Origin: Clostridiales bacterium | GTDB taxonomy: Bacteria > Bacillota > Clostridia > Oscillospirales > Oscillospiraceae | Length of the DNA: 50,714 bases | Assembly: GCA_021205725.1 (NCBI GenBank) | Contig: JAJPWY010000043.1 | Span: 1 to 50,714, forward strand | Direction: 5' to 3' | Shown here: positions 3,915-43,236 of the stretch, piece by piece | Layout: every line of letters starts with the position of its first letter | How positions within the stretch are numbered: position 1 is the first letter of the stretch | Program-made: the position numbers and the translations under genes | Notes under the pieces: generated by a model | What the model was told of the DNA's origin: nothing | What the model saw: only the letters and a program-made list of their open reading frames with translations | Databases searched by the model: none

Positions 3915-3932
3915 TCTCTCCCCGCACCCTAT

Positions 3933-3968
3933 GGGCGGCAGACGATTTTTCGTCTGCCGCCCGTTTTT
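3933..3968 (+). terminator. Terminator of glgP
   Basis: Thirteen-base-pair perfect stem GGGCGGCAGACGA / TCGTCTGCCGCCC closed by a TTTT loop and followed by five T residues, 18 bp after the glgP stop. Confidence 0.9.
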
Positions 3969-3975
3969 CATCTCC

Positions 3976-4014
3976 AAAAAGACAGCGGCCTGCACCGTTA
4001 CGATGCAGGCCGCT
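3976..4014 (-). terminator. Terminator of the isomerase-family gene
   Basis: On the minus strand AGCGGCCTGCA / TGCAGGCCGCT (11 bp) is followed by GTCTTTTT, 22 bp after the stop at 4036. It is back to back with the glgP terminator. Confidence 0.85.
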
Positions 4015-4035
4015 GAATGTTTTGTGGGATTTGGC

Positions 4036-5511: not shown

Positions 5512-5587
5512 GGCGTGTGTCCTCCTGACTCAAATCAAAGTGGGGCGTCCTTCCAGGGAACGGGACAGACCCCCTAGCTTATTGTTC

Positions 5588-5596
5588 AGTATAACA
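5588..5596 (-). promoter_or_regulatory. Extended -10 for the isomerase-family gene
   Basis: Minus strand TGTTATACT (TG-n-TATACT), about 75 bp upstream of the start codon at 5511. No good -35 is visible. Confidence 0.4.
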
Positions 5597-5610
5597 TGAC
5601 TAGCCAAGAA

Positions 5611-5686
5611 TGGAAACCGGTTTTTTGTAGAATCCCACCGACAATTTTGCGCTTTTGGAAAAACAGGCGAAATAGCCCGGTTTCCA
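5611..5686. repeat. Spaced perfect inverted repeat, candidate operator pair
   Basis: TGGAAACCGG at 5611-5620 and its exact reverse complement CCGGTTTCCA at 5677-5686, centres 66 bp apart. One arm lies near the leftward -10 region and the other abuts the rightward -35. The placement suits a regulator binding both promoters, but no regulator gene is adjacent. Confidence 0.45.
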
Positions 5687-5689
5687 TGC

Positions 5690-5717
5690 TTGACAACCGA
5701 TATAGAATCGCTATAAT
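5690..5717 (+). promoter_or_regulatory. Promoter of the MATE exporter
   Basis: Perfect hexamers TTGACA (5690-5695) and TATAAT (5712-5717) with a 16-nt spacer, about 100 bp before the GTG start. Confidence 0.8.
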
Positions 5718-5820
5718 CTGTCGTGGTAAAATACCGCAACTCCGTCCCGCAGATGTGCCAATGCCCTTGCCAGTCTGCGGGACGGAGCCTGATATGCCTG
5801 ATACAAAGGAGGAAAATCAA

Positions 5821-7188
5821 GTGCAATCATCCAGTGCGCTTCACGAGAACAAAATGGGCACCATGCCGGTGAACCGGCTGCTGCTGACCATGGCGCTGCC
5901 TATGATGCTGTCCATGCTGGTGCAGGCCTGCTACAATGTGGTAGACAGCATCTTTGTCTCCATGCTGGGAGAGGACGCCCTGACGGCGGTCTCCCTGGCG
6001 TTTCCGGCACAGAATATTATGATCGCCGTCGGCACCGGCACCGGCGTCGGCATCAACGCCATGCTCTCCAAATCTCTGGGAGAGGGGGACGAGGCCACCG
6101 CCAACCGGGCGGCCAGCAACGGCATCTTCCTTGCCTTCTGCTCTATGGCCGTGTTTATGGTGCTGTCCCAGACGGTGGTGCGGCCCTTTTACGCCAGCCA
6201 GGTGGCGGAGGACTCCGCCATCCTGGAGTATGGGGTGAGCTATCTCACCATCTGCGCCCTGCTGTGCCAGGGACTGTTCCTCCAGCTGGCCTTTGAGCGG
6301 CTGCTCCAGGCCACGGGACATACGGTGCTGAGCATGATCTCCCAGATGTCCGGAGCGGTGGTCAACATCATTATGGACCCGGTGCTCATCTTCGGCCTTG
6401 GCCCCTTCCCGGAGCTGGGGGTGGCGGGAGCCGCCGTCGCCACCGTTCTGGGCCAGTTCGTGGGAGCCGCCGTGGTGATCGTCCTGAACTTCCGCTGCAA
6501 CAAGGAGCTGCATTTTGAGGTGCGCAACTGGTTCCGGCCCCACGGCCCCACCATCCGGCGCATCTACATTGTGGGCGTCCCCTCCATCATCATGGCCTCC
6601 ATTAGCTCGGTGATGACCTACGGCATGAACCTGATTTTGGGTGCCTTCTCCTCCACCGCCATGGCGGTGCTGGGAGTGTATTTCAAGCTCCAGTCCTTTG
6701 TCTTTATGCCCGTCTTTGGCCTGAACGGAGCGCTGGTGCCCATCATCGCCTACAACTTTGGCGCCCGGAAGCGGGAGCGGATGATCACCACCATCAAGCT
6801 GGGCATCTTCTACGCCATGTGCTTCATGCTGGCGGGCATGGCGGTGTTCGAGCTGCTCCCCGCCCAGCTGCTGGGGCTGTTCAACGCCTCGGACTATATG
6901 CTGGAGATCGGCGTCCCCGCCCTGCGCACCATCGCGTTGAGCTTCGCCTTTGCGGGCTACTGCATCGCCTGCGGCACTGTGTTCCAGGCCCTGGGCAACG
7001 GCCTCTACTCCATGATCATCTCCATCGTCCGCCAGCTGGTGGTGCTGCTGCCGGTGGCCTGGCTGCTGGCCCAGACCGGCGTGCTGGACTATGTGTGGTG
7101 GGCCTTCCCCATCGCAGAGCTGGCCAGCCTGTGCCTGAGCACCTGGTATCTGGTCAGGATCAACCGGAAGATCATCTCCAAGGTGTGA
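5821..7188 (+). CDS. MATE family multidrug/solute efflux transporter
   Basis: 455 aa, the normal MATE length. It is a cytoplasmic-membrane cation/drug antiporter of the NorM/DinF superfamily. Early residues NRLLLTMALPMMLSMLVQ are the usual first MATE helix, followed by YNVVDSIFVSMLGEDALTAV. About twelve hydrophobic segments are spaced along the protein, with two homologous halves. I place the start at GTG 5821 because AAAGGAGG (5805-5812) sits 8 nt upstream. The longer in-frame extension would run through the promoter. It ends in a strong terminator, so it is monocistronic. The substrate cannot be inferred. Confidence 0.93.
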   Translation: MQSSSALHENKMGTMPVNRLLLTMALPMMLSMLVQACYNVVDSIFVSMLGEDALTAVSLAFPAQNIMIAVGTGTGVGINAMLSKSLGEGDEATANRAASNGIFLAFCSMAVFMVLSQTVVRPFYASQVAEDSAILEYGVSYLTICALLCQGLFLQLAFERLLQATGHTVLSMISQMSGAVVNIIMDPVLIFGLGPFPELGVAGAAVATVLGQFVGAAVVIVLNFRCNKELHFEVRNWFRPHGPTIRRIYIVGVPSIIMASISSVMTYGMNLILGAFSSTAMAVLGVYFKLQSFVFMPVFGLNGALVPIIAYNFGARKRERMITTIKLGIFYAMCFMLAGMAVFELLPAQLLGLFNASDYMLEIGVPALRTIALSFAFAGYCIACGTVFQALGNGLYSMIISIVRQLVVLLPVAWLLAQTGVLDYVWWAFPIAELASLCLSTWYLVRINRKIISKV

Positions 7189-30361: not shown

Positions 30362-31543
30362 ATGGAACTGATTACAAACACACTGAGTAACCTGATCGAG
30401 CAGTCGGGCTTTGCACAGCTGGCGGACTTCAAGCAGATCATCATGATTCTTGTCGCCTGCGTCCTGCTCTATCTGGGTATCGTCAAAAAGTACGAGCCTC
30501 TGCTGCTGGTGGGCATCGGCTTCGGTATGCTGCTGACCAACCTGCCGGGCAGCGAGGTCTATCACCCTGAGCTGTGGTACGCCTCCGGCAGCGCCGACGT
30601 GGACTGGGGGGCCGTGCTACACGACGGCGGCTTCCTGGATATCCTGTACCTGGGCGTCAAGCTGGGCATATATCCGTCCCTCATCTTTGTGGGTGTGGGC
30701 GCTATGACCGACTTCGGCCCCATGATGGCCAACCCCAGCTCAATGCTCCTGGGCGCTGCCGCCCAGCTGGGCGTCTATGTGGCCCTGCTCCTGGCTGTGG
30801 CCCTGGGTTTCTCCGGCTCTGAGGCGGCCTCCATCGCCATCATCGGCGGCGCAGACGGCCCCACCGCCATCTGGCTAACCAAGACGTTGGCCCCCCACTT
30901 GCTGGGAGCCATAGCAGTGGCCGCCTACTCCTACATGGCCCTGATCCCTCTCATTCAGCCCCCCATCATGCGGGCGCTGACCACCGAGAAGGAGCGTCAG
31001 GTCAAGATGGAGCAGCTCCGGCCCGTGTCCCAGACGGAAAAGATCGTATTCCCCATCGTGGTCACCATCGTCTGCTGCTTGGTGCTGCCCTCCGTGGCCT
31101 CCCTGCTGGGCTGCCTGATGCTGGGCAACCTGTTTAAGGAGTGCGGCGTCACCGACCGCCTGTCCGACACCGCTCAGAACGCCCTGATGAACATCGTCAC
31201 CATCTTCCTGGGCATCTCCGTGGGCGCCACCGCCACCGCCGACCAGTTCCTCTCCCTCGAGACACTGGAGATCATTATCCTGGGCCTGGTCGCCTTCGCG
31301 GTTGCCACCGCTGGCGGCATCCTCTTTGGCAAGATCATGTACCGGGTCACCGGCGGCCGGGTCAACCCGCTGATCGGCTCCGCCGGCGTCTCCGCCGTCC
31401 CCATGGCTGCCCGTGTCTCCCAGGTGGAGGGCCAGAAATGGAACCCGTCCAACTTCCTGCTGATGCACGCCATGGGCCCCAACGTGGCCGGCGTCATCGG
31501 CTCCGCCGTGGCCGCAGGCTTCCTGCTGGCTGTGTTCGGATAA
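30362..31543 (+). CDS. oadB: Sodium-translocating decarboxylase beta subunit
   Basis: 393 aa, with about nine to ten membrane helices. It decarboxylates carboxybiotin and exports Na+. Conserved parts are FVGVGAMTDFGPMMANPSS, IIGGADGPTAIWLTKTLAP (the functional Asp in GGADGPT) and the C-terminal NPLIGSAGVSAVPMAARVSQ. It follows the biotin carrier by 13 bp. With oadA, oadG and the carrier it makes a full pump that converts decarboxylation energy into a sodium gradient. Confidence 0.95.
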   Translation: MELITNTLSNLIEQSGFAQLADFKQIIMILVACVLLYLGIVKKYEPLLLVGIGFGMLLTNLPGSEVYHPELWYASGSADVDWGAVLHDGGFLDILYLGVKLGIYPSLIFVGVGAMTDFGPMMANPSSMLLGAAAQLGVYVALLLAVALGFSGSEAASIAIIGGADGPTAIWLTKTLAPHLLGAIAVAAYSYMALIPLIQPPIMRALTTEKERQVKMEQLRPVSQTEKIVFPIVVTIVCCLVLPSVASLLGCLMLGNLFKECGVTDRLSDTAQNALMNIVTIFLGISVGATATADQFLSLETLEIIILGLVAFAVATAGGILFGKIMYRVTGGRVNPLIGSAGVSAVPMAARVSQVEGQKWNPSNFLLMHAMGPNVAGVIGSAVAAGFLLAVFG

Positions 31544-31564
31544 GAACCGCATCAACCATTTTCT

Positions 31565-31592
31565 GGGGCTGTGCCGCTGGCACAGCCCCATT
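31565..31592 (+). terminator. Terminator of the oad operon
   Basis: GGGGCTGTGCC-GCT-GGCACAGCCCC, an 11-bp perfect stem, followed by ATTTCG. The T tract is short. Confidence 0.7.
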
Positions 31593-31633
31593 TCGCGGTA
31601 AATCAGCGGGAAAATGCCCCAAAAACGTCTGTG

Positions 31634-31681
31634 CAACCGACGGTTGACAAACTGCAAGGCCGGGATGGTTGCGCCGCAACC
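31634..31681. promoter_or_regulatory. Two palindromes, candidate XRE operators
   Basis: CAACCG-A-CGGTTG (31634-31646) and GGTTGC-GCC-GCAACC (31667-31681). Both are built from the same CAACC/GGTTG half-sites. The second overlaps the -35 of the adjacent regulator gene, suggesting autoregulation. Confidence 0.5.
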
Positions 31682-31698
31682 GCTGTTTTTCGTACAAT
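31669..31698 (+). promoter_or_regulatory. Promoter of the XRE regulator gene
   Basis: TTGCGC (31669-31674), 18-nt spacer, TACAAT (31693-31698). Confidence 0.55.
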
Positions 31699-31728
31699 GG
31701 AGCCACCAAAACAAGGAGGCGTTTCGGT

Positions 31729-32370
31729 ATGAACATGGCAGACAGGATACAACAGCTGAGAAAGGCCCGTGGGATCTCTCAGGAGGAGCTGGCGGACCAG
31801 GTGGGCGTTTCCCGCCAGGCGGTGAGCAAGTGGGAGAGCGAGCAGAGCGTCCCCGACCTGAACAAGGTGGTGCTGCTCAGCGATTACTTCGGCGTGACCA
31901 CCGACTACCTGCTCAAAGGCATCGAGCCGCTGCCGGAGCAGCCGGTCAAGTCAAAGCCGGACGCCCGCATCTTCGCCGTGGTGGGCATGGCGTTGAACTT
32001 TGTCGGCCTGGTGGCCGCCATCGGTATCTGGGAGACCTGTTACGAGTCCTGGTCTGTGGCGGTGGGACTCGCCTTTATGGCGGTGGGCTGTGCGGTCTTT
32101 GCCGTGGGCCAGTTTATAGGCGAGAACACCCGGAGCGCCGCCGGGTGGTTCTGGCCGGTCAACGTGTGGCTGCTGGCACTGATGCCCATCTCCAGCGCAT
32201 TTAATGCGCTGGACTCAATGATGAGCGGAGGCGGCTGGTGGGGCCTGTCGCCCATCCCGGATTCGTGCAATTACTTTATCACCAATGCCCTGTGCTGGCT
32301 GTTCTATGGGGCGGTGTGCGTGTTTGCGGACTGGTGGCTCAGGAAAAGGCTGTCAAAGGAGAGCAAATAG
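31729..32370 (+). CDS. XRE-family regulator with a C-terminal membrane domain
   Basis: 213 aa. The N-terminal helix-turn-helix covers residues 1-60, with [20 protein letters not shown] and [17 protein letters not shown], typical of Firmicute XRE proteins. About four membrane helices follow from residue 80. Such DNA-binding membrane proteins are thought to answer cell-envelope cues. The start at 31729 follows ACAAGGAGGCGTTTCGGT. It is monocistronic with a terminator before the kinase operon, although it is the nearest regulator to that operon. Targets are unknown apart from probable self-control. Confidence 0.88.
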
Positions 32371-32407
32371 AGCTGTCCCTCATTGGCTGAGCGCAGGATC
32401 CGCTCAG

Positions 32408-32441
32408 ATCCCCGTCCGGATGTCCCGGTCGGGGATTTTTG
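32408..32441 (+). terminator. Terminator of the XRE gene
   Basis: ATCCCCG / CGGGGAT outer stem with an inner CCG/CGG pairing, followed by TTTTTG. Confidence 0.7.
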
Positions 32442-32499
32442 TCTGTCAGCCCGTTCCCCGGGGCCGCACGTATCAGGCCAAAAAGGAAAAGAATGCTCA

Positions 32500-32528
32500 T
32501 TGCAATAGATGCGGCGTTGTGATACTAT
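32500..32528 (+). promoter_or_regulatory. Promoter of the kinase-lectin/FHA-ABC operon
   Basis: TTGCAA (32500-32505), 17-nt spacer, TACTAT (32523-32528) preceded by TG, an extended -10. It is the only convincing promoter before the four genes. Confidence 0.65.
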
Positions 32529-32534
32529 ATTAAA

Positions 32535-32716
32535 ATAGTAATAGTTGGATACTGCGACCAAAAGGGGTCGGAAGGGAATCGGACGGCATTTTCAACGCCG
32601 ACCTCCCCGTCCTCCCAACGGTTTGAAGGATACGGCTTATCGTGCCGGTGAGCGCAGCGGCCCCGGGCTCGCCCACAGAGAGGGACGGGGCAGACAGAGA
32701 GAAAGGAACGATCGGT
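32535..32716 (+). other. Long 5' leader of the kinase operon
   Basis: About 180 nt between the predicted transcription start and the kinase gene. Several small hairpins are possible: GCGACC-AAAA-GGGGTCG, GACGGC...GCCGAC, and GGTGAGC...GCTCGCC near 32646-32673. No known riboswitch consensus is recognised and no leader peptide is evident. Confidence 0.4.
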
Positions 32717-35700
32717 ATGCCAATGATCAACACCTGGCCTGGCTGGGAGTGTGTGCGGCAAATTGGCACTGGCAGCTATGGAACGGTATATGAGATCAAG
32801 CGGACAGATTTCGGTATGGAATGGCACTCTGCGCTGAAGGTCATCACCATTCCCAAAAACGAGTCTGAGCTGCGGGCAGTATCCAATGAGGGAATGTCCA
32901 GGGACGAGGTAGCCGCCTATTTCAAGGGAATCGTGGACAGCATCTCAGAGGAGTTCCGCCTGATGCACAGTCTGGCCGGGCTGACCAATGTTGTCTCCTG
33001 TGAGGACTATATGACCATTCCCCATGACGACGGGATCACCCAGGACATCCTCATCCGAATGGAGCTTCTCACCCCCCTGACCGACTTCAATCACGGCTGC
33101 CTGACGGAGCAGCAGGTGATCCGGATGGGGATCGACCTGTGCTGCGCCCTGGAAATCTGCGAAAAGCACGGCATCCTCCACAGGGATATCAAGCCCGGCA
33201 ACATCTTCCTCAATCGCAACGGAGACTTTAAGCTGGGCGACTTCGGCATTGCCAAGGCCATCGAGGAGACAACCTCCATGTCCCAGAAGGGAACGCTTGC
33301 GTACATGGCCCCGGAGATCTTTACCATGAGTCGCTACGGCTTCACTGTGGATCTCTATTCCCTGGGCATGGTGCTCTATCAATACCTGAACGAAAACCGG
33401 ACACCCTTCCTGCCGCTGCCGCCCATCAGCATCGTCCCGTCCATGCGGGAGGAGGCCAGGATCCGCCGGATCAGAGGAGAGGCGATCCCCGATCCCGCCA
33501 ACGGCAGCCAGGCGTTGAAGCAGGTCATTTTGAAGGCCGTCAGCTTCGCCCCGGAGGATCGCTACCAGAGCGCCACCGAATTCCGTAAGGCGCTGGAGGC
33601 AGTCGCCAGCCAGCAGACGCCGGAGCCCTCCTCTCTCCCGCAGATAACGGACGTGGAGCTGTCCTACGGAAACAGGAATATCCGGTTTGACGGCGACGAG
33701 ATCAGCTGGTGGAACCGGGATCTGCCAGGCAAAATACACTACGGTCATCCCCGGGTCTCGGAATATCTCGCCCACCAGAGCCGAAGGCTGAGCCGTGAGG
33801 AATCGTCTCAGCTGCTCTGTGAGATCGACCGCATCCCTCTTTACAACCTGTCGCCGGCAGATGAGAACGCTACGGTTCGGGGAGACAGATTGGTGTGTAC
33901 GTACAGCGATGGAACCGTTCTCTGGTACAGCTCCGCCCAGAAGCCTCCGGAGATCACGGAGATGTACCGGGCGCTGGCCAAATGGTGTACGTTTGTCCCC
34001 GACAGCATCTTCTCTCAGCCGGTGAAGTATGAGGTCACGTTCTACAACGACCAGGGACAGGTCATTCAGAAGGGAGATTACCCGGAGGGCGCCTTCGTTC
34101 AGGCGCCGGCGGTGCCCGCCCGCTACCGGAAGGGCCGGGACAGATATCGTTTTACCGGGTGGAGCCCGGAGATCCAGGCGACCGTCACCCAAAAAGCCCA
34201 GTACACGGCGGTCTATCAAAAGCAGAAGCAGCGGCCGATCGACCCGTCCCGGTTGCTGTCCGTCGTGCTGGTGCTCGCCATCGTTGCAGGGCTGGCCGTT
34301 CTGCTGTTCTTTCCCTGGCGGGGAGAGCCGGAGGCAGTGACCCTGGGCCAGGACTCGGCGACGCTGGTGGTAGGGGAAACGGCAGAGCTGACCGCCTCTG
34401 TGCAAATGACGAAAGGGGAGTTCAGCGGCTCCATCTCCTGGAGCAGCAGCGACCTGGACGTAGCCATCGTAGAGAAAAAGGGGTCTGCGTCGGCGGAGGT
34501 GACCTGTATCGAGGCCGGTACATGCGTCATTACCGCCACCGCCGGAGATTGCGAGGGTGAGCTGGAGCTCACCTGTGCCAAGGACGCCGTGCTGACCCTG
34601 GATACCGAGACCGTATCCGGGATGATAGGCGACACCGTTGACCTGGAAGCCTCCGTTACCATCTCCGACGAGGAGTATTCCGGCACCGTCAAATGGGAGT
34701 CCAGCGACGAGTCCGTGGCCACGGTGGTCTCCACCGGCCCGACGACAGCAGAGGTCTCCCTGGTGGGAGAGGGGGTGGCGGCCATCTCCGCCACCGCAGG
34801 CATGTCGGGAGCTTATTGTCAGCTCTCCTGCGTCGAGAGCTACGACGCCTTTCTGGGGCAGTTCGTGACGGAAACGCTAATCCCGGCAGAGGGCGTTCAG
34901 AGCAGCAGCCTCCTCTACACAGTCGCCAACGGCGTCGCCGAGATCTCTCAGGGAACCGGAGGCGTTCTCTCCACGCTACAGGCCGATTTTGACGGCGACG
35001 GGAGCGAGGAGCTGCTGGTGGTTCATACGACAGCCGGCGCCGACGGCTATTTGGGGTATCTCCTGGATCTGTACCGGTCTACAGCGGACGGCGTTTCCCA
35101 GGCAGCTGTGGCGGCAGACGGAACCCGGCTCAACAGCACAGGAACCACCGCCGTCGTCTGCTTCGACCGGTGGCTGTGCGTCGCCTCATATGAGGCGGGC
35201 ACAGACTCGGAGACCTCGGTGCACATTTTTGACCTGGGAAACGATCTCCTGGAGACGGCGGGGTATCAGTACAGCCGCACGCTGAACCGGGTCAAAATAA
35301 CCAACCTGGTCACCGGAGAAGTCCTGTGCGACATGAGCGAGAGCAGCTACTGGGACGGCGGCGTCTACGAGACCATGCTCGACCAGATCAGCGGCCAGGT
35401 CGCCGCATCTGTGGGCGATGAAACCTGTGCGGCGTTTACGGCGGAATATATTGTCAAGAGTATTTGGGGCGAGGATGTGGCGGACGACTGCTCCGATGCA
35501 CTGCTGGCGGAGTCGTCCTTTGTGGGCACTACGGTTTCCGGCGTCGTCTCCGTGACGGATCACACCGGGATCCAGTCCGCATATGACGATTCGGAGCCTC
35601 TCTCTTATGAGGCCTCCTTCCCCTCCGGAACCGTATCGTACAACGGCCATCACTATTGCGTCTTTACAGACGAGATCGACTGGGCAACGGCGGAGGCCAG

Positions 35701-36061
35701 CTGCGAGGCCATGGGCGGCCACCTGGTGACGATCGGCGACTCCGACGAAAACGAGTTTGTCTACGAGCTGATCTGCACCTACAGCACCGAGATCGCCTTC
35801 CTCATGGGCGGAACGGACAGCGAGACAGAGGGAGAATTTGTCTGGATCACCGGCGAGCCCTTCCTCTATACCAACTGGGGATATCTGAACGAGCCGGACA
35901 ACTACCGGGGCTATAAGGATCAGGATTGCATCACCATGCTCCCCTTTGACCAGTCCGGAACCTATAAGGACGACAGCGGGGAGCAATGGGGCGTCTATGC
36001 GTCTCAGTGGGATGACAAGGATGGCGGCAGCAATCCCTATGTCTGTGAGTGGGATTACTGA
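32717..36061 (+). CDS. Transmembrane Ser/Thr protein kinase with an extracellular C-type lectin-like domain
   Basis: 1114 aa. The cytoplasmic kinase (about 10-295) looks active: GTGSYG (17-22), Lys41, HRDIKPGN (155-162), DFG (175-177) and APE (198-200). An unclassified stretch follows, then an InlB-repeat-like module (about 437-501, ending GWSPEIQATVTQKAQYTAVY). The single membrane helix is at 513-532. Outside come two Big-like immunoglobulin domains (about 540-620 and 625-705), a region with DFDGDGSEE resembling a calcium-binding repeat, and a C-terminal C-type-lectin-like domain (about 972-1114). The last has NWGYLNEPDNYRG, paired cysteines and QWDDKDGG...YVCEW. The start is ATG 32717 with AAAGGA upstream. 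First of four same-strand genes. The InlB-like module lying before the helix, hence cytoplasmic, is odd. Confidence 0.9.
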   Translation: MPMINTWPGWECVRQIGTGSYGTVYEIKRTDFGMEWHSALKVITIPKNESELRAVSNEGMSRDEVAAYFKGIVDSISEEFRLMHSLAGLTNVVSCEDYMTIPHDDGITQDILIRMELLTPLTDFNHGCLTEQQVIRMGIDLCCALEICEKHGILHRDIKPGNIFLNRNGDFKLGDFGIAKAIEETTSMSQKGTLAYMAPEIFTMSRYGFTVDLYSLGMVLYQYLNENRTPFLPLPPISIVPSMREEARIRRIRGEAIPDPANGSQALKQVILKAVSFAPEDRYQSATEFRKALEAVASQQTPEPSSLPQITDVELSYGNRNIRFDGDEISWWNRDLPGKIHYGHPRVSEYLAHQSRRLSREESSQLLCEIDRIPLYNLSPADENATVRGDRLVCTYSDGTVLWYSSAQKPPEITEMYRALAKWCTFVPDSIFSQPVKYEVTFYNDQGQVIQKGDYPEGAFVQAPAVPARYRKGRDRYRFTGWSPEIQATVTQKAQYTAVYQKQKQRPIDPSRLLSVVLVLAIVAGLAVLLFFPWRGEPEAVTLGQDSATLVVGETAELTASVQMTKGEFSGSISWSSSDLDVAIVEKKGSASAEVTCIEAGTCVITATAGDCEGELELTCAKDAVLTLDTETVSGMIGDTVDLEASVTISDEEYSGTVKWESSDESVATVVSTGPTTAEVSLVGEGVAAISATAGMSGAYCQLSCVESYDAFLGQFVTETLIPAEGVQSSSLLYTVANGVAEISQGTGGVLSTLQADFDGDGSEELLVVHTTAGADGYLGYLLDLYRSTADGVSQAAVAADGTRLNSTGTTAVVCFDRWLCVASYEAGTDSETSVHIFDLGNDLLETAGYQYSRTLNRVKITNLVTGEVLCDMSESSYWDGGVYETMLDQISGQVAASVGDETCAAFTAEYIVKSIWGEDVADDCSDALLAESSFVGTTVSGVVSVTDHTGIQSAYDDSEPLSYEASFPSGTVSYNGHHYCVFTDEIDWATAEASCEAMGGHLVTIGDSDENEFVYELICTYSTEIAFLMGGTDSETEGEFVWITGEPFLYTNWGYLNEPDNYRGYKDQDCITMLPFDQSGTYKDDSGEQWGVYASQWDDKDGGSNPYVCEWDY

Positions 36062-36083
36062 CCTGAGACAGAGGTGTTGAGCA

Positions 36084-38558
36084 ATGAGAGAGCAAGGGAG
36101 ACGGGAGCGGCCGCAGGCTGACCCGGACAGACGGCAGCGGAGATTCAAATGGTATATCATCCCCTGCGTCGTAGCCGCAGTCTGTCTCTGCCTGATCGCA
36201 GGTGTCCTGGTGCTCAGCCCCGGCAGCACAGAAGCGGAGGACGCCGGAGCCACGGATGCGCCGACGGAGGAGGCTGCCGTCGGCGGGAGTTGGGCGGACA
36301 GCGATACGGAGGCGGAGCCATCGGCGCTCACCGTCTCCCTCGGTGCGGAAGATCTCACCCTGATGGTGACAGCGCAAAAGCAGCTCACCGCCGCCGTCTC
36401 CGATGAAAACGGGGAGGAGCGGACGGACAGCAATCCCGTCACATGGGCTAGCTCCGATCCGGAGGTGGTCTCCGTTTCGGACGACGGGACGATCACCGCT
36501 CTAGCGGAGGGGACGGCGCAGATAACGGCAAGCCTCTCCAGCGGAGAGAGCGCCTCGCTGTCGGTAACGGTGCTCCCGCTGAATGTGGCGGAGAAGACCG
36601 TATTCGTCCAGCCCGGAGACGTGCTGACCATCAGCGAGCTGGGGCTTCTTCCGGAGGAAATGGAGTGGACAGAGTTCCAGTGGTCATGCTCCAACGAGAA
36701 GGTGGCCGCTGTCTCAGCAGGTGAAATCACCATTTTGAGCGACGGAGAGGCGGAGATCCGGGGTACGGGGGATACTGCGAGCATCTCCTGCACCGTGACG
36801 ACCTGCTTTGGCGGCAAGCTCATCGCCCACCGGGGGCTGAGCGGCGAGGCGCCTGAGAATACTGTGCCCGCCTTTCAGCTGGCAGGGCAGGCAGGCGCCT
36901 GGGGCATCGAGACAGATATCGTCTCCACCTCTGACGGGGTGCTGGTCTGTCTCCACGATGACACCATAGACGCCATGACAGACGGGAGCGGCAGGGTGAG
37001 CGGCTTCACCTATGAGGAGCTGATGCAATACCACATCGACGCAGGAAGCAACGTTGACCAGTACCAAGACCTGACCATCCCCACCTTCCAGGAATATCTG
37101 GAAATCTGCAGAGAATATGATGCCGTTGCCGTGATCGAGCTGAAGACCCTGTCCTCTACCGCACAGGTGCGCACGGTCTACGAGACCATCTGCGCCTGCG
37201 GGATGGAGGAGCAGTGTATCGTCATCAGCTTCCAGTACTCCTATCTCCAGGCCTTGCGCAGCTATACCCAGGATATACCCGTTCAGCTGGTGGTCAACGC
37301 CGCCAGCAGGACAAATATCGCACAGGCGGCCACCCTCGAAAACAGCGGCATTGATTTCAAGACCGGGAGTGAGACGCTCATCGCCTATGCCCACTCCCTC
37401 CACTGCACGACGAATGTGTGGACGGTAGACACCGCCTCCGCCCAGGAGTCCTGGCGGGCGGCCGGGATCGACTTTATCACAGCAAATTCGGCGGATTGGT
37501 CTGCCGGGGCATCGCCTGACGACGGAGACGAAACCGATTCCAATGCGGAGGAGAGCGACGGGGAGCCAATCACGCTGTTCTTCGCCTCCGATTATCAGGC
37601 TGAGGACGGCTGGCCTGCGCCCTCGGAGACGCTGACCGGTCTGCTGGAGGTCATCTATGGAGACGGCTATGCGCCGGACAACGTCATTTTGTGCGGCGAC
37701 TACACAAACCTGGAAAAGAAATACAACTATGAGACGAGCCCGGACGACTCGATCGCCGAGATCAAATCCATCTTTGGGGCATTTGACCCAGACCTGGACA
37801 TGGATGATATGATTTTTGTCCAGGGGAACCACGATGCCATGTCCTCTGCGCTGACGGAAACCGGGCTTTACGAATTTGACGATTATCTCGTCTATGTCAT
37901 CGACACCCAAAATGCCTATCCCTGGAAGCAGGGAAGCCTCGGACTTTCCGCCATTGTTCAGAACACAGCTGAAAATCTGGCGGCCTGCCTGGACGACCTG
38001 ATCGAAGCGGGAGAGACCAGACCGCTTATCATAGCCGGGCACGTCCCGCTCCATTTCTCCGCCAGAACCAGCTCCCTCCACACCACGGGGGATAATCTGT
38101 ATGCGTCCTATATATTCGATGTCGTCAATGAGGCCGGGCAATCCCTGGATATCATCTACCTGTTTGGTCACAACCACTCCAAAGGCTGGGACAGCTATCT
38201 GGGCGGAAGCTGTGTTTATCAGGGAGTCGGCGACACTGTCCTGATCCCCACCTGGGAGGAGGGCGATGTGGATACGGAGACCTACAGCGAGGAGACGCTG
38301 AGCTTCACCTACCTGAATGCGGGATATTTGGGCTATTGCAGCGACAGCGGCGCTGACGACACGCTGACCTGCACCGTCTGCCAGATCTACAGCGACAAAA
38401 TCGTCCTGACCCGATATTCCACAGACGGCATCTGGCACATGGGCGCTGACGGAGCGGCCAATCCTTACAGGGACGACACCGGGCTGATCTCCTCGAGCCT
38501 TTACAGCGAGGAAACAGAGAGTCCACAGGTGATAATACGGAAAAACGCCGCAGAATAG
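36084..38558 (+). CDS. Membrane-anchored fusion: Big domain, glycerophosphodiester phosphodiesterase, metallophosphoesterase
   Basis: 824 aa. One N-terminal helix (about 23-45) with a basic cytoplasmic tail puts the rest outside. A Big_2-like domain spans about 82-165. A GDPD domain (about 244-472) has LIAHRGLSGEAPENT, GIETDIVSTSDG (Glu276, Asp278) and CLHDDT (His291). A calcineurin-like phosphoesterase (about 495-780) has ASDYQ, LCGDYTN, GNHDA, AGHVPLH and FGHNHSKGW, so its metal ligands are complete. Two phosphodiester/phosphomonoester hydrolases in one chain suggest stepwise breakdown of glycerophospho-compounds such as lipid head groups or teichoic acid. It lies 22 bp after the kinase gene, with GAGGTG before the start. 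Being outside the membrane, it is not the phosphatase that reverses the kinase. Confidence 0.9.
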   Translation: MREQGRRERPQADPDRRQRRFKWYIIPCVVAAVCLCLIAGVLVLSPGSTEAEDAGATDAPTEEAAVGGSWADSDTEAEPSALTVSLGAEDLTLMVTAQKQLTAAVSDENGEERTDSNPVTWASSDPEVVSVSDDGTITALAEGTAQITASLSSGESASLSVTVLPLNVAEKTVFVQPGDVLTISELGLLPEEMEWTEFQWSCSNEKVAAVSAGEITILSDGEAEIRGTGDTASISCTVTTCFGGKLIAHRGLSGEAPENTVPAFQLAGQAGAWGIETDIVSTSDGVLVCLHDDTIDAMTDGSGRVSGFTYEELMQYHIDAGSNVDQYQDLTIPTFQEYLEICREYDAVAVIELKTLSSTAQVRTVYETICACGMEEQCIVISFQYSYLQALRSYTQDIPVQLVVNAASRTNIAQAATLENSGIDFKTGSETLIAYAHSLHCTTNVWTVDTASAQESWRAAGIDFITANSADWSAGASPDDGDETDSNAEESDGEPITLFFASDYQAEDGWPAPSETLTGLLEVIYGDGYAPDNVILCGDYTNLEKKYNYETSPDDSIAEIKSIFGAFDPDLDMDDMIFVQGNHDAMSSALTETGLYEFDDYLVYVIDTQNAYPWKQGSLGLSAIVQNTAENLAACLDDLIEAGETRPLIIAGHVPLHFSARTSSLHTTGDNLYASYIFDVVNEAGQSLDIIYLFGHNHSKGWDSYLGGSCVYQGVGDTVLIPTWEEGDVDTETYSEETLSFTYLNAGYLGYCSDSGADDTLTCTVCQIYSDKIVLTRYSTDGIWHMGADGAANPYRDDTGLISSSLYSEETESPQVIIRKNAAE

Positions 38559-38633
38559 CGGCAAAATACAGATGCTCAGCAGAGCAGCCCCAACGGTTGA
38601 ACCGGAGCTGCGACAGGAGGACGACAGGGCGAC

Positions 38634-40175
38634 ATGACAACAGAGGATCGAACCGAATATACGGTCAGCAAGGCAGACCAGCAAAAAATCATTGCTATTT
38701 TCGGAGATGAGATACAGGAGCTTCCCCTCTCCGGGGAGCAGCTGCTGGGAAGACCCGTCTCCGGCTTCACCCCCGATCTGCCCATCCCCGTGCTCTCCGT
38801 CTCGAGGAAGCACGGCATATTCCGCACCTCTGAGGCCGGATGCCAATACTGCGACCTGAACGGCACCAACGGCACCTGGTTAAACGGACAGCTTCTCCCG
38901 CCCGGTACTGCGAAAATGCTCCGGGACGGCGATGCGCTGCGCATCCACGGGAGACAGGCCCGTGGGTACGATCTGGATGTGCTCATGATCTATACTGTGG
39001 GCGGTCGGACGGATGCGCCCTGGCGGACGATGCCGCTGACCAACGACATCGTGGAGCTCGGCGTTGGCAGCTGCGATACCATCCGTCTGCCGGACGGGGA
39101 GGCCTCTCCCCATCACGCCTCCTTTCTCCGGCGGGATGGACAGTGGGCCGTTGTCAATGACAGCGGCAACGCCGACATTTTCATCAACAATCAGCCTGTC
39201 GGCTCCCTTGCATACCTCTCTCCTATGGACGTGGTGCGCATTGCAGGGCACTTTTTCGTTTTCCTGGGCAGCACTCTGGCGTACCAGCCAGAGCCGGAGG
39301 CCGCAGATGCGTCCCAGCATCCATCGGCGGAGGATGAGACCACCGACGACGGAAGCGCCCTCCTCATCTCCATCAAAGAGAAAAACGTGTGGCATCAGAT
39401 GAAGAAGCTGACGCTGCTTCGGGACATTGAGCTGAAAATATCCGCAGGAGACATGGTGCTGGTGCTGGGCGGCTCCGGTGCGGGAAAGACGACCTTTATC
39501 AACGCTGTCATGGGGTATGAGCCTGCCGACGGCGTGATCCACTACAAGGGAGCCGACATCTACACCGACTATGAGAGGATGAAATATGAGATCGGCTATG
39601 TCCCCCAGCAGGATCTGTTACGGATGAACGATTCCGTATACGATACCCTGCTCAATGCGGCAAAAATGAAGCTGCCGGCCAATCTGACTGCTGAGGAGCT
39701 GGAGCAGCGTGTGAAGGAGACGCTGTATACCCTGGGGCTGGAGTCGGAGCGGAATGCGCTGGTGCGCAGTCTCAGCGGCGGGCAGAGAAAGCGGCTGAGC
39801 ATTGCGGTGCAGTATATCGGCGGGCCGTCCCTGTTCTTCCTGGACGAGCCTGACTCCGGCCTGGCCATGCCAAACGCCCTTTCCCTGATGCAGAATCTCC
39901 GGGCCATTGCGGATGAAGGGAAGATCGTCGTCGTGATCTCCCACTATCCGAACAAGTTCATGCACCTGCTGGACAAGGTGATCGTCCTGGCAAAGGACTG
40001 GAGCGGAGTGGGACGACTCGCCTTTTGTGGCTCGCCGTCGGACGCCTGCGCATTTTTCGGTACGGACGGCATCGAGGAGATCGTATCCCGCATCAACCCA
40101 AAGGGGGAGGGCGGAGAAGGCCTGGCGGACGAGTTTATCGAACGGTGGGAAAAGCGGACGAAAAGGGAGCAGTGA
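38634..40175 (+). CDS. Tandem-FHA ABC transporter ATPase (ABCG/Rv1747-like)
   Basis: 513 aa, soluble. FHA1 (about 20-115) keeps the phospho-threonine-binding set: GR (39-40), SRKHG (57-61) and LNGTNGTWLNG. FHA2 (about 133-215) retains SPHHASF but lacks the GR motif, so its peptide binding is doubtful. The ABC domain (about 245-480) has Walker A GGSGAGKTT (279-287), a Q-loop (PQQDLL), signature LSGGQRKR (380-387), Walker B LFFLDEP (400-406) and an ISHYP switch His. The order FHA-FHA-ATPase matches mycobacterial Rv1747, except that the membrane part is a separate gene here. FHA1 probably docks phosphorylated kinase or an autophosphorylated partner. A 75-bp gap with AGGAGG precedes the start. 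Confidence 0.92.
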   Translation: MTTEDRTEYTVSKADQQKIIAIFGDEIQELPLSGEQLLGRPVSGFTPDLPIPVLSVSRKHGIFRTSEAGCQYCDLNGTNGTWLNGQLLPPGTAKMLRDGDALRIHGRQARGYDLDVLMIYTVGGRTDAPWRTMPLTNDIVELGVGSCDTIRLPDGEASPHHASFLRRDGQWAVVNDSGNADIFINNQPVGSLAYLSPMDVVRIAGHFFVFLGSTLAYQPEPEAADASQHPSAEDETTDDGSALLISIKEKNVWHQMKKLTLLRDIELKISAGDMVLVLGGSGAGKTTFINAVMGYEPADGVIHYKGADIYTDYERMKYEIGYVPQQDLLRMNDSVYDTLLNAAKMKLPANLTAEELEQRVKETLYTLGLESERNALVRSLSGGQRKRLSIAVQYIGGPSLFFLDEPDSGLAMPNALSLMQNLRAIADEGKIVVVISHYPNKFMHLLDKVIVLAKDWSGVGRLAFCGSPSDACAFFGTDGIEEIVSRINPKGEGGEGLADEFIERWEKRTKREQ

Positions 40176-40181
40176 CCTACT

Positions 40182-41000
40182 ATGGAAAAAAGCAGGATCG
40201 GGAGAGCGGGGCAGATCCGGATATACGTGGGAAAGTGCCTGCGGCTGTTCGTCAGTGAGAAACAGTGGATCAACTTTATCTCTACCGCCATCATCATGTG
40301 CATCATCGCTCTGGTGACGGGAGAGGATATGTTTGTGGCCTACAGCGATACCAAAAACGGAGCGTTCGCCATTATCTGCGCCTGTATCTGGATCGGCCTG
40401 TTCAATTCGATCCGCTCCGTCTGCCGGGAACGGGATATCATCAAGTGGGAGCACAAAACCGGGCTCCACATTTCCTCCTATGTGATCGCCCACGTCGTCT
40501 ATGAGCTGCTGCTCTGCGTTGTGGAGACCCTCATCGTGATCACGGTGGTTTTTCTCAAATATCATGAGAATATTCCGGTCGAAGGACTCATCTTCCCCAT
40601 GCTGCTGGATCTGTATGTGACCCTTTTGTTGGTCATGTTTGGCTCAGATATGCTGGCCCTTCTGATCTCGTGCATGGTAAAGAGCGAAAACACCGCCATG
40701 ACCGTCATGCCCTTTGTGCTGATTATTCAGCTGGTGATGTCCGGCGCCGTATTCTCTCTCAGCGGAATCACGGAGCGGATGGCCTATCTCACCCTGAGCA
40801 AGTGGGGACTCAATGCGATCTGCTCGATTTCCAACACCATTGATTCCGTCTATGAGGACTATGAGATCTTCGGGAACGGGGACTGTGCGGCGACTGCGGA
40901 GCACCTGGGCTTCATCTGGCTGCTGCTTCTGGGCTATGCGCTAATCTATATCGTATTAGGCGTGGTCGCTCTGGAGCAGGTCGACCGGGACAAGCGATAG
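40182..41000 (+). CDS. ABC-2 type permease, partner of the FHA-ABC ATPase
   Basis: 272 aa, with about six membrane helices in the ABC-2/ABCG pattern. It has a basic N-terminal segment, helices near 32-48 and 62-76, an amphipathic SVCRERDIIKWEHKTGLHIS coupling stretch, and later helices including MTVMPFVLIIQLVMSGAVFS and IWLLLLGYALIYIVLGVVAL. Only 6 bp separate it from the ATPase stop. Together they form a half-transporter, which would dimerise. The direction is most likely export, as for ABCG-type systems. The cargo is unknown; no biosynthetic or precursor-peptide gene is nearby. Confidence 0.88.
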   Translation: MEKSRIGRAGQIRIYVGKCLRLFVSEKQWINFISTAIIMCIIALVTGEDMFVAYSDTKNGAFAIICACIWIGLFNSIRSVCRERDIIKWEHKTGLHISSYVIAHVVYELLLCVVETLIVITVVFLKYHENIPVEGLIFPMLLDLYVTLLLVMFGSDMLALLISCMVKSENTAMTVMPFVLIIQLVMSGAVFSLSGITERMAYLTLSKWGLNAICSISNTIDSVYEDYEIFGNGDCAATAEHLGFIWLLLLGYALIYIVLGVVALEQVDRDKR

Positions 41001-41022
41001 CGCCCTGCCATCCTCACTGAAA

Positions 41023-41076
41023 CAGAGAACCTTCTTTTACAGCTTACAAGGGTCTGCTGTAGAAGAAGGTTCTCTG
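41023..41076. terminator. Long hairpin between the convergent kinase operon and trmO
   Basis: CAGAGAACCTTCTT / AAGAAGGTTCTCTG (14 bp) with an inner TTACAGC/GCTGTA extension. There is no good T tract on either side, but its location between convergent genes fits a bidirectional terminator. Confidence 0.6.
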
Positions 41077-41099
41077 CTGTCTGTCGATTTCCTGGTGTG

Positions 41100-41813
41100 T
41101 TATTTCTCCGTCTCCGGAGCCACCTCTACCACGGTCAAAACATCCCCCGCCACAGTAAAGCGCACGTCCCGGCCCGCAAAGGTCAGACCGTAGCGGCGGT
41201 CAGGATCCCTCTGGTAGGCAGGGCGGGGGTCCTGGGCCAGCACGCCCATGAGCGCCTCCCGCTTTTCCGGGGGGATACGCTCCAGCAGCGGCTCCGGGAA
41301 ATCCACCTCCAGCGTCTGCCGGGCCACCTGGTCGGTGAAGCCGCCGGTGGCCTCCGGGTGACAGTCGGCATAGGGGAGATAGGGCTTGATGTCCAGAATG
41401 GGGGTTCCGTCCATCAGGTCTGCTCCGGAGACCACCAGCACCGGGCCTGTCCCCGGACGGTTCTCCACCGACACCAGCTTCACCACCGACAGGCCGATGG
41501 GATTGGGGCGGTAGGGGGAGCGGGTGGCAAAGACCCCCATGGTCTCGTTGCCTCCCAGCCGGGGTGGGCGGACGGTGGGGCTCCAGCTGGTACGAATCGC
41601 CTTGCTGAACTGCCAGATGAGCCACAGGTGGGAAAACCCGTCGATGCCCCGGAGGGCGTCCGGGTTCCGATAATCCGGCTCAAAGACGATCTCACCCCGC
41701 AGGGCGTCCACCAGGCCGCTCTGCCGGGGGACGCCGAACTTGGTGGAGAAATCCGTGTGGATGCGGGCGATGATTTTGACGGGGAATTCCTCCGCCGACG
41801 CCGTCTCTTTCAT
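41100..41813 (-). CDS. trmO: tRNA (N6-threonylcarbamoyl-A37) methyltransferase
   Basis: 237 aa, the normal TrmO/TsaA (YaeB) length. It methylates t6A37 of tRNA using S-adenosylmethionine. The fold-specific stretch FPVKIIARIHTDFSTKFGVP, FEPDYRNPDALRGIDGFSHL and the signature RSPYRPNPIGLSVVKLV are clear. I choose ATG 41813 (MKETASAEEF), one base after the purF stop, with GGGGTG upstream. The longer frame would lie deep in purF. Last gene of the purF operon. Confidence 0.92.
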   Translation of the reverse strand: MKETASAEEFPVKIIARIHTDFSTKFGVPRQSGLVDALRGEIVFEPDYRNPDALRGIDGFSHLWLIWQFSKAIRTSWSPTVRPPRLGGNETMGVFATRSPYRPNPIGLSVVKLVSVENRPGTGPVLVVSGADLMDGTPILDIKPYLPYADCHPEATGGFTDQVARQTLEVDFPEPLLERIPPEKREALMGVLAQDPRPAYQRDPDRRYGLTFAGRDVRFTVAGDVLTVVEVAPETEK

Positions 41814-41814
41814 C

Positions 41815-43236
41815 TTATTTGCACCCCGGCGCAGCGCAGCCGATCTCCCCGGCGGGGATGGGATACTCCTCGGTAAAGCAGCCGTCGCAGAAGCCACACT
41901 GAGCGTCCGGGGCGATGTGGTGCAGCCCCTCCAGGCTCAAAAAGGCCAGGGAGTCCGCCCCGGTCATCTCCCGGATCTCCTCCAGGGAATAGTGACAGGC
42001 GATAAGCTTCTCCTTGTCCGGGATGTCGGTGCCGAAGTAGCAGGGGGCGATGAATTCCGGAGAGGAGACCCGCATATGCACCTCCGTAGCCCCCGCCTGG
42101 CGGAGGAGGCTGATGATGGCCTTGCAGGTAGTACCCCGGACGATGGAGTCGTCGATCATGACCACCCGCTTCCCCGCCACCTGGCTCCGGAGGGCGCCCA
42201 GTTTGATACGAACCGCCTGCTCCCGGCTCTGCTGGTTGGGGGTGATAAAGGTTCGGCCGATGTACCGGTTTTTCACAAAGCCCTCCCCGTAGGGGATGCC
42301 GGACTCGGCGGCGTAGCCCATGGCGGCGTCCAGGCCGGAGTCGGGCACGCCGATGACCACGTCCGCCTCCACCGGGGACTCCCGGGCCAGGAAGCGTCCC
42401 GCATTCCGCCGGGCCTCGTGGACGGACTGTCCGCAGATGACGCTGTCCGGCCGGGCAAAATAGATGTACTCAAAGATGCACAGATGGCTCATCCCCTGGC
42501 AGTTGGAGCGGATGGAGCGGACGGTGCAGGCGGTCTGACCGTTTTTCTCGTCAGGTGGCTCCACCACCACGATCTCTCCCGGCTCCACCTCCCGGACATA
42601 CTCCGCCTCCACCCCGTCCAGGGCGCAGGACTCGCTGGCAAAGAAGATGGCGTCTCCTTTTTTGCCGATGCACAGGGGCCGGAAGCCCCAGGGATCCCGG
42701 GCGGCGATGAGCTTTCGGGGGCTCATGACGATGAGGGAGAAGGCCCCCTTCAGGTGGCGCACCGCCCGGCTCACCGCCTCCTCCACGCTGGGGCAGGTCA
42801 GCCGCTCCCGGGCGATGGCGTAGGCGATGATCTCCGTGTCCGAGGTGGTCTGGAAGATGGCCCCGTTGTACTCATACTCCCGGCGGAGGGCCTCAGTGTT
42901 CACCAGGTTGCCGTTGTGCACCACCGCCAGGGTTCCCTTGACGTATTTCAGGGTCAGGGGCTGGGCGTTCTCCCGCTTTCCCGCCCCGGTGGTAGCGTAG
43001 CGGACATGGCCCACCGCCATGGTCCCGCCCAGCTCCCGGAGCTTTTCCTCATCGAACACGTCCCCAACCAGGCCCACGTCCTTGTAGTAGGACAGCTCCC
43101 GGTCGTTGGTGGTGGCGATGCCGCAGGCCTCCTGGCCCCGGTGCTGGAGGGCATACAGCCCGTAATAGGTGGTCTTGGCGCAGTCCCCCTTAGGATCCCA
43201 GCAGCCAAAGACGCCACATTCCTCATGGATGCTCAT
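41815..43236 (-). CDS. purF: Amidophosphoribosyltransferase
   Basis: 473 aa. First committed step of purine synthesis (PRPP + glutamine to phosphoribosylamine). A short propeptide MSIHEE precedes the nucleophile Cys7 in ECGVFGCW. LQHRGQEACGIAT and GHVRYATTG belong to the Ntn glutaminase. The PRPP loop VVMIDDSIVRGTTCKAI and the [4Fe-4S]-type cysteines (C near 257, FCDGCF at the C-terminus) match the Bacillus-type enzyme. The start follows GAGGAGGACACTCC. It lies downstream of the dehydratase genes, not among other pur genes; guaB is 4 kb upstream. Confidence 0.96.
   Translation of the reverse strand: MSIHEECGVFGCWDPKGDCAKTTYYGLYALQHRGQEACGIATTNDRELSYYKDVGLVGDVFDEEKLRELGGTMAVGHVRYATTGAGKRENAQPLTLKYVKGTLAVVHNGNLVNTEALRREYEYNGAIFQTTSDTEIIAYAIARERLTCPSVEEAVSRAVRHLKGAFSLIVMSPRKLIAARDPWGFRPLCIGKKGDAIFFASESCALDGVEAEYVREVEPGEIVVVEPPDEKNGQTACTVRSIRSNCQGMSHLCIFEYIYFARPDSVICGQSVHEARRNAGRFLARESPVEADVVIGVPDSGLDAAMGYAAESGIPYGEGFVKNRYIGRTFITPNQQSREQAVRIKLGALRSQVAGKRVVMIDDSIVRGTTCKAIISLLRQAGATEVHMRVSSPEFIAPCYFGTDIPDKEKLIACHYSLEEIREMTGADSLAFLSLEGLHHIAPDAQCGFCDGCFTEEYPIPAGEIGCAAPGCK

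Follow-up and report, generated by a model that had tools for sequence, protein, structure and literature searches.

A lectin-tipped kinase, a surface phosphodiesterase and an FHA-bearing ABC exporter in a clostridial four-gene cassette of two-module make-up

How does a bacterium come to carry a lectin-tipped Ser/Thr kinase, a surface phosphodiesterase and an ABC exporter with FHA domains side by side on one strand? The window analyzed here, positions 1-50,714 of contig JAJPWY010000043.1 (GenBank assembly GCA_021205725.1, a Clostridiales bacterium of the Oscillospiraceae), raises this question: the open reading frame (ORF) list and Pfam place four plus-strand ORFs at 32717-41000, encoding a kinase-lectin protein, a protein with GDPD and calcineurin-like phosphoesterase (MPE) domains, an FHA-ABC ATPase and a permease. 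An earlier sequence-only reading had taken the four genes as one candidate new sensory-export system. We find two modules, a lectin-GDPD/MPE pair native to the window's genus (module A) and an exporter, often with a kinase, that recurs in Clostridia (module B); this two-module origin is an addition to the earlier account. That the cassette is a composite receptor-exporter, produced by joining module B to module A, is an explanation we credit about as strongly as we doubt it. The features of the cassette are as follows.

32717-36061, plus strand: chimeric receptor kinase, 1114 aa (Pfam PF00069 4e-37; Big_2, two stretches; Lectin_C 7e-10)
35657-36061, plus strand: C-type-lectin tip of the kinase (Pfam Lectin_C and alignment to sister tips)
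36084-38558, plus strand: membrane-anchored surface enzyme, GDPD-MPE, 824 aa (Pfam, homologues, motifs)
38634-40175, plus strand: FHA1-FHA2-ABC ATPase, 513 aa (Pfam FHA 7e-16, two stretches; ABC_tran 3e-25)
40182-41000, plus strand: ABC-2 type permease, 272 aa, partner of the ATPase (Pfam ABC2_membrane 3e-16; relatives adjoin an ATPase)

Module A is a native feature of the window's genus and pairs a zinc-ribbon-lectin protein with an adjacent GDPD/MPE. Its same-genus loci were located with the GDPD-MPE protein as query, not with the lectin tip; at 1e-20 the query matches 11 of 32 genus genomes, several by GDPD alone. In one genome (G015, locus L308) a zinc-ribbon-transmembrane-lectin protein, with a lectin 70% identical to the window's tip, stands 22 bp ahead of GDPD-MPE, the same gap as in the window, and the DNA is colinear with window positions 35702-37815, from the lectin into MPE, at 81% identity; the lectin protein begins with a zinc ribbon where the window has a kinase, and the GDPD-MPE copy ends prematurely inside MPE. 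A second genome (G025, L309) has a zinc-ribbon-Big_2-lectin protein (71%) beside GDPD and MPE genes that, unlike those of the window, are separate. Both loci differ from the window in having a cytoplasmic zinc ribbon in place of the kinase and in lacking an FHA exporter. The GDPD-MPE gene of G005 (L307) lies on a 3.8-kb contig that ends before the upstream neighbor, and in G026 and G024 the fetched stretches contain MPE but match neither the lectin nor GDPD (L310 stops 0.5 kb beyond MPE). Across the five genus stretches with GDPD/MPE we found no FHA exporter (in L311 there is a single ABC match, at 29%), and their only kinase match (L309, 18319-18807) is more than 7 kb from the MPE gene. In the genus, lectin tip and GDPD/MPE go together as a native pair of their own, with neither a kinase nor the FHA exporter next to them. 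Because this pair is genus-native, the window kinase gene reads as a module-B kinase with a module-A tip, the modules standing in tandem; a module-B-type kinase appears to carry the lectin tip in place of the zinc-ribbon head found in the two sister genomes. Near module A in L308, positions 3-1652 and 2035-5964 encode two further proteins, one of lectin-LRR_5-SPOR architecture and one that joins a zinc ribbon to a thermolysin-like peptidase domain.

The exporter has a different distribution. Among 31 same-genus genomes (61-100% complete) no FHA-ABC counterpart was found, matches being at the generic ABC level (best 3.7e-21 vs. 3.9e-54 for a same-order relative). Module B, an FHA-ABC ATPase and permease often with a kinase, recurs in Clostridia: the FHA part is matched in 24 of 295 genomes of the order, some of these matches being other FHA proteins, and the permease at 1e-12 in 17 of 391 genomes of the class, the window's own genome included in both counts. 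Among the 80 matches listed in a collection scan, at least 21 are close loci (31-55% identity) and the other 59 are distant ABC proteins. We examined 44 exporter loci (L059-L065, L067-L087, L174-L182, L216-L222). The ATPase is visible in 42 of them, L175 and L220 having been set aside; the stretches run to about 21 kb, and presence in the same stretch does not always mean adjacency. A local profile matched FHA in 31 of the 42 (L074 only at E 0.1) and in none of the other 11; a kinase is present in the same stretch in 17 of the 31 vs. 0 of the 11 (p 0.0012). Pockets were scored on five residues (GR/S/H/N), complete in at least one FHA in 23 loci and not in 19. Complete-pocket loci have a kinase and/or PP2C in 17 of 23 cases vs. 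1 of 19 for the others (p 6.2e-6; L085 counted through PP2C alone), and removal of the short contigs L070, L080 and L174 leaves 17/22 vs. 1/17 (p 1e-5). In L059, L060, L065, L067 and L179 the FHA-ABC gene immediately follows the kinase gene. Neither a kinase nor PP2C was found in 59 loci that hold other ABC proteins (median 20.6 kb; many from other phyla and so an unmatched control) or in 24 same-genus flank loci (median 4.5 kb).

The extracellular ends of the exporter-linked kinases vary, with a Pfam tip family in 6 of 11 scanned: Big_2 and PASTA in L067 (1517-4597), NPCBM in L073 and L061, DUF6273 in one of three kinases in L065, LRR_5 and PASTA in L063, and PASTA in one of two in L176. A lectin tip occurs in none of 37 exporter stretches (L216-L222 left out), nor do GDPD/MPE matches, and we reject a single conserved four-gene system on this count. 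The co-occurrence expected by the sequence-only reading is thus borne out for the kinase with FHA-ABC and fails for GDPD/MPE and the lectin tip. No PP2C is encoded within the four-gene cassette, as that reading had noted; it had called this unusual, whereas of 17 kinase-bearing FHA loci 9 have PP2C and 8 do not, which makes its absence here ordinary.

The kinase-lectin protein comprises a Ser/Thr kinase domain, a transmembrane helix (513-531, the single hydrophobic helix), two Big_2 domains, an unassigned middle and the C-type-lectin tip. A motif script found GTGSYG, ALK, HRDIKPGN and APE; the DFG motif, DFGIAK, was read by eye in the translation, the script having matched an earlier DFG. The start is the ATG at 32717, which has an AAAGGA-type ribosome site; an alternative GTG at 32642 has none by eye. 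The kinase domain is 45-47% identical to the kinases of L063, L065 and L073 over 291-312 aa and 34% identical to the PASTA kinase of its own genome over only 134 aa, in a comparison list biased to almost only exporter-linked kinases. Pfam finds no PASTA repeats in it, and it scores 121.7 bits against the PASTA kinase model (PrkC/PknB, NF033483; threshold 450), outside that family. The tip scores 40 bits for Lectin_C (curated cut-off 22.6) and has EPD (1059) and WDD (1098) where the calcium/sugar motifs would be, which in C-type lectins we take to be EPN or QPD and WND. The extracellular end of the kinase is matched in 26 of 291 genomes of the class, its own included; L202, from another genome of the class and the only kinase picked from the ORF listing of 29 loci (L187-L215), was the only one of these Pfam-scanned and is a kinase with Lectin_C. 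A weak Listeria-Bacteroides repeat match (residues 438-493, E 0.013, below cut-off) falls on the predicted cytoplasmic side of the transmembrane helix, an odd location.

The surface enzyme has a single hydrophobic helix (25-43) as N-terminal anchor, followed by two Big_2 domains, GDPD (249-468) and MPE (about 490-820). GDPD is clear (PF03009 5e-34, 118.9 bits vs. a cut-off of 23.6). The MPE half, also named in the sequence-only reading, falls below the Pfam cut-off by itself (0.028), and the assignment holds because a 67% identical homologue, L280, passes the PF00149 cut-off and the metal motifs GD, GNHD, GH and GHNH are found and conserved in the alignment of homologues. By our assignment of the metal motifs, motif I is DYQ, presumably in place of the usual DxH (Gln for His). 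A search of solved structures with the MPE half returned none at E 1, and a five-row MPE profile gave E 0.017 or worse, including to Rv0805 and acid sphingomyelinase-like 3a; single-sequence structure prediction of the whole protein was unusable (mean predicted local distance difference test score 39.9). The same genome encodes a second GDPD (G000:C21:45426-46106), 52% identical to the cassette's GDPD part.

In the FHA-ABC ATPase the FHA1 phosphothreonine pocket is complete (G39, R40, S57, H60, N79; GR/SxxH/N). The FHA2 pocket reads GVSHA, with Val for Arg and Ala for Asn, and since the Arg is lost FHA2 is probably no phospho-reader. Between FHA2 and the ATPase lies an acidic stretch of ~19 residues with Thr236-Thr237, absent from seven aligned relatives. 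One other FHA-family protein is detected in the genome at E 0.001, an FHA fused to an FtsW/RodA-type protein (L066, 7697-9679, contig C54), a possible second FHA target of the genome's kinases.

To our knowledge, FHA phospho-gating of an exporter is known from one mycobacterial pair. The available text of PMC3908365 reports that the PknF gene is operonic with that of the exporter Rv1747, that PknF phosphorylates Rv1747 in vitro and that the interaction is FHA-dependent; in that of PMC5549992, FHA I of Rv1747 binds a phosphothreonine partner, mutants have altered phosphatidylinositol mannoside (PIM) glycolipids, and the cargo is given as unproven. The window has a similar gene string, a kinase gene upstream of a tandem-FHA ABC exporter with FHA1 as predicted phospho-reader, but its GDPD-MPE gene lies between the two, its FHA2 pocket is lost, and a lectin tip and surface phosphodiesterase are added. 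Its ATPase and permease, unlike those of Rv1747, are separate genes with a 6-bp gap, and for this reason we say that the cassette works like Rv1747 and do not class it as a member. The likeness is drawn from gene order and domain make-up. Closer at hand, the clostridial clusters L061, L063, L065, L176 and L180 likewise have a kinase, often with an extracellular-type tip, near an FHA-bearing ABC exporter; unlike the window, they have PP2C, lack GDPD/MPE and the lectin tip, and in L061, L063, L065 and L180 have ATPase and permease fused. Cyanobacterial Ser/Thr kinase-CLec proteins, described as retroelement-diversified in the available part of PMC7517822, share the fusion of a kinase to a C-type-lectin-like domain; the words "FHA" and "transporter" do not occur in the main text of that paper. 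We rejected a diversity-generating retroelement acting on the window's tip: within 10 kb of the genome's one reverse-transcriptase match there is, unlike in the cyanobacterial case, no matching template, just 10-14-base matches. A survey of bacterial kinase architectures (PMC1262709, in part) notes that in Mycobacterium tuberculosis the genes for FHA proteins lie in clusters with those for kinases and phosphatases; its main text does not contain the word "lectin". The combination seen here was not described in the titles and abstract openings of full-text search results, a search of open-licence papers that does not show absence from print.

By analogy with PknF/Rv1747, we propose a route from ligand through kinase and FHA1 docking to a change in export. 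A surface carbohydrate or glycopolymer would bind the lectin tip and bring kinases together; the kinase would then autophosphorylate and/or phosphorylate the exporter, for example at Thr236-Thr237 of the acidic linker, and FHA1 would dock on the phosphothreonine and change ATPase/permease activity. The exporter may move a lipid or lipid-linked phospho-glycopolymer outward, with GDPD/MPE trimming the exported or a related surface phospho-polymer. Known enzymes make a teichoic-acid-type cargo conceivable: in the available text of the respective papers, GlpQ degrades unsubstituted phosphoglycerol wall teichoic acid (PMC7086022) and a metallophosphoesterase-like enzyme releases undecaprenyl phosphate from linked wall teichoic acid (PMC11898649). 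The sequences themselves show the gene order, the domains, the two modules, the colinear lectin-GDPD-MPE DNA of a sister genome and the pocket/kinase association; we infer how gating runs, which ligand, cargo and enzyme substrate are involved, that phosphorylation takes place and in what order the fusion events came. The component families are ordinary; what is new is the wiring, a variant of the FHA-gated exporter that looks like a plug-in connection of an outside signal to export. We give a little short of an even chance to a wider picture in which phospho-gated ABC exporters form a large clostridial class, with kinases that gain interchangeable tips by fusion, the genus-native lectin/phosphodiesterase module having been rewired in here with the kinase replacing the zinc-ribbon head, and in which the FHA pocket decays where the kinase is lost. 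A tip swap could be a route for a bacterium to link a new outside signal to export, and the exporters whose FHA is intact, degenerate or missing, some with kinases and some without, form a natural set on which phospho-gating is directly testable.

Gaps of 22, 75 and 6 bp separate the four genes, and by eye the starts have purine-rich stretches resembling ribosome sites ahead of them. Their adjacency on one strand, the kinase motifs, helix and tip, the two FHA domains with the ATPase and permease, and the flanking terminator-like hairpins all agree with the sequence-only reading. Its "one good promoter" does not: a consensus scan of 31500-42500 returned zero plus-strand sites, and the best manual matches reach 8/12. 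The signals are the following.

32408-32436, plus strand: terminator-like hairpin 3' of the upstream XRE-type regulator gene (stem of 7 plus 4 pairs with TTTT after it)
32500-32528, plus strand: weak promoter-like site, TTGCAA-17-TACTAT (8/12 match, TG preceding the -10; below the consensus-scan threshold)
41023-41076, plus strand: 21-pair hairpin lying between two convergent genes, the permease and a TrmO-like gene (-37 kcal/mol, z -6.2; no T-run directly 3')

Several observations weigh against a receptor-exporter acting as one unit. The complete arrangement is known from one genome assembly (2.12 Mb, 89 contigs), the cassette's promoter appears weak, and a 75-bp gap precedes the FHA-ABC gene. 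The blank for GDPD/MPE in the exporter stretches speaks against a general enzyme-exporter partnership. Elsewhere, L074 has a kinase (with TPR) and lacks the pocket, the sole such exception; L062, L068, L070, L219, L221 and L222 have a complete pocket with no kinase or PP2C in view; and the kinase is on the opposite strand in L064 and L073 and kilobases off in L182. No tip family was found in 4 of the 11 kinases (L067 7809-9971, the other L176 kinase, L059 and L179), and the tipless L067 kinase adjoins the exporter in what is the nearest exporter relative. The ATPase tree shows 7 changes of the pocket and 8 of kinase presence, and only three independent pairs fall on supported branches (about 2 in agreement, 0.1 opposed and 0.9 without a difference), which is not significant; with so few independent transitions the pocket/kinase association may stem from shared ancestry. 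The kinase-to-exporter wiring claimed by the sequence-only reading is supported by the recurring pair, the complete FHA1 pocket and the association, the last not being significant on independent contrasts.

These points bear on what else the cassette could be. Exporter, kinase and surface enzyme may have been gathered at a variable junction without forming one pathway, the kinase having other targets; we think this unlikely, but seriously worth weighing. Upstream, a decarboxylase-subunit gene and then the XRE regulator occur in three of six sister stretches (L271, L272, L273); downstream, PurF adjoins TrmO in seven of nine, and the genes beyond TrmO vary among the five sister stretches listed. 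By this comparison of neighbors the cassette lies between two blocks that are unjoined in the sisters examined, which suits mere co-location, as do the missing genus counterpart of the exporter and the absence of GDPD/MPE and lectin tip from other exporter stretches. It sits less well with the short same-strand spacings, the kinase-FHA association across loci, and a kinase-lectin fusion that is a single open gene of 1114 codons. In a separate rival reading the kinase signals envelope state to growth or wall synthesis through other partners, with FHA1 recruiting the exporter only as a scaffold. The FHA-FtsW/RodA fusion, which the kinase could also serve, and the PASTA domains among the tips of some exporter-linked kinases point this way; the window kinase itself has no PASTA, and its nearest relatives, in the biased list, are exporter-linked, and we hold this reading to be distinctly improbable.

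Another possibility is that the cassette senses and does not export, its ATPase having become a regulatory or slow pump. The D-loop reads SGLA (window 39840-39881, residues 403-416; Ala codon GCC), the one Ala among 43 aligned ATPases, the other 42 having Asp; because of this substitution the ATPase may be altered or impaired, a further point against a working exporter. Walker A, Walker B with its Glu, the signature, and the Q and H loops are nevertheless intact, as is the permease that has been kept, and we give the regulatory version little credence. Least credible, to the point of near dismissal, is a phage-defence kinase/ABC system. In a PADLOC scan of the four genes the kinase domain matches the mad6 (2e-50) and PD-T4-6 models and the ABC protein matches mad3, mad8 and AriA, but the matches are best over the generic kinase and ATPase domains, the NCBIfam MAD6 model gives 84 bits where the cut-off is 460, and the GDPD-MPE and permease proteins have no match; the scan gave no full-length MADS or PD-T4-6 family match with partner genes, and an extracellular lectin and phosphodiesterase do not fit such a role. 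The composite of modules A and B is the explanation we retain.

A compositional island was considered and dropped, since the G+C content of the cassette (about 0.57-0.62) shows no clear break from its surroundings (0.58-0.66). Virus-borne copies were likewise discarded: a viral contig scan gave 17 pattern matches, none a relative. On another contig of the same genome, a PASTA kinase and PP2C are encoded side by side.

Among the exporter relatives, L077, L078, L079, L082, L177 and L178 form a subclade without an FHA match, several members of which have by eye a hydrophobic stretch before the ATPase; L078 and L082 have two ATPase-permease pairs each. L062 (9384-10838) encodes an FHA relative whose ATPase lacks the Walker A Lys, Q loop and H loop and looks like a pseudo-ATPase, with no kinase or permease match in view. 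L083, L086, L176, L180 and L181 are dense clusters of FHA matches, zinc-ribbon kinases, PP2C and an FHA exporter, and look like multi-input phospho-signaling islands.

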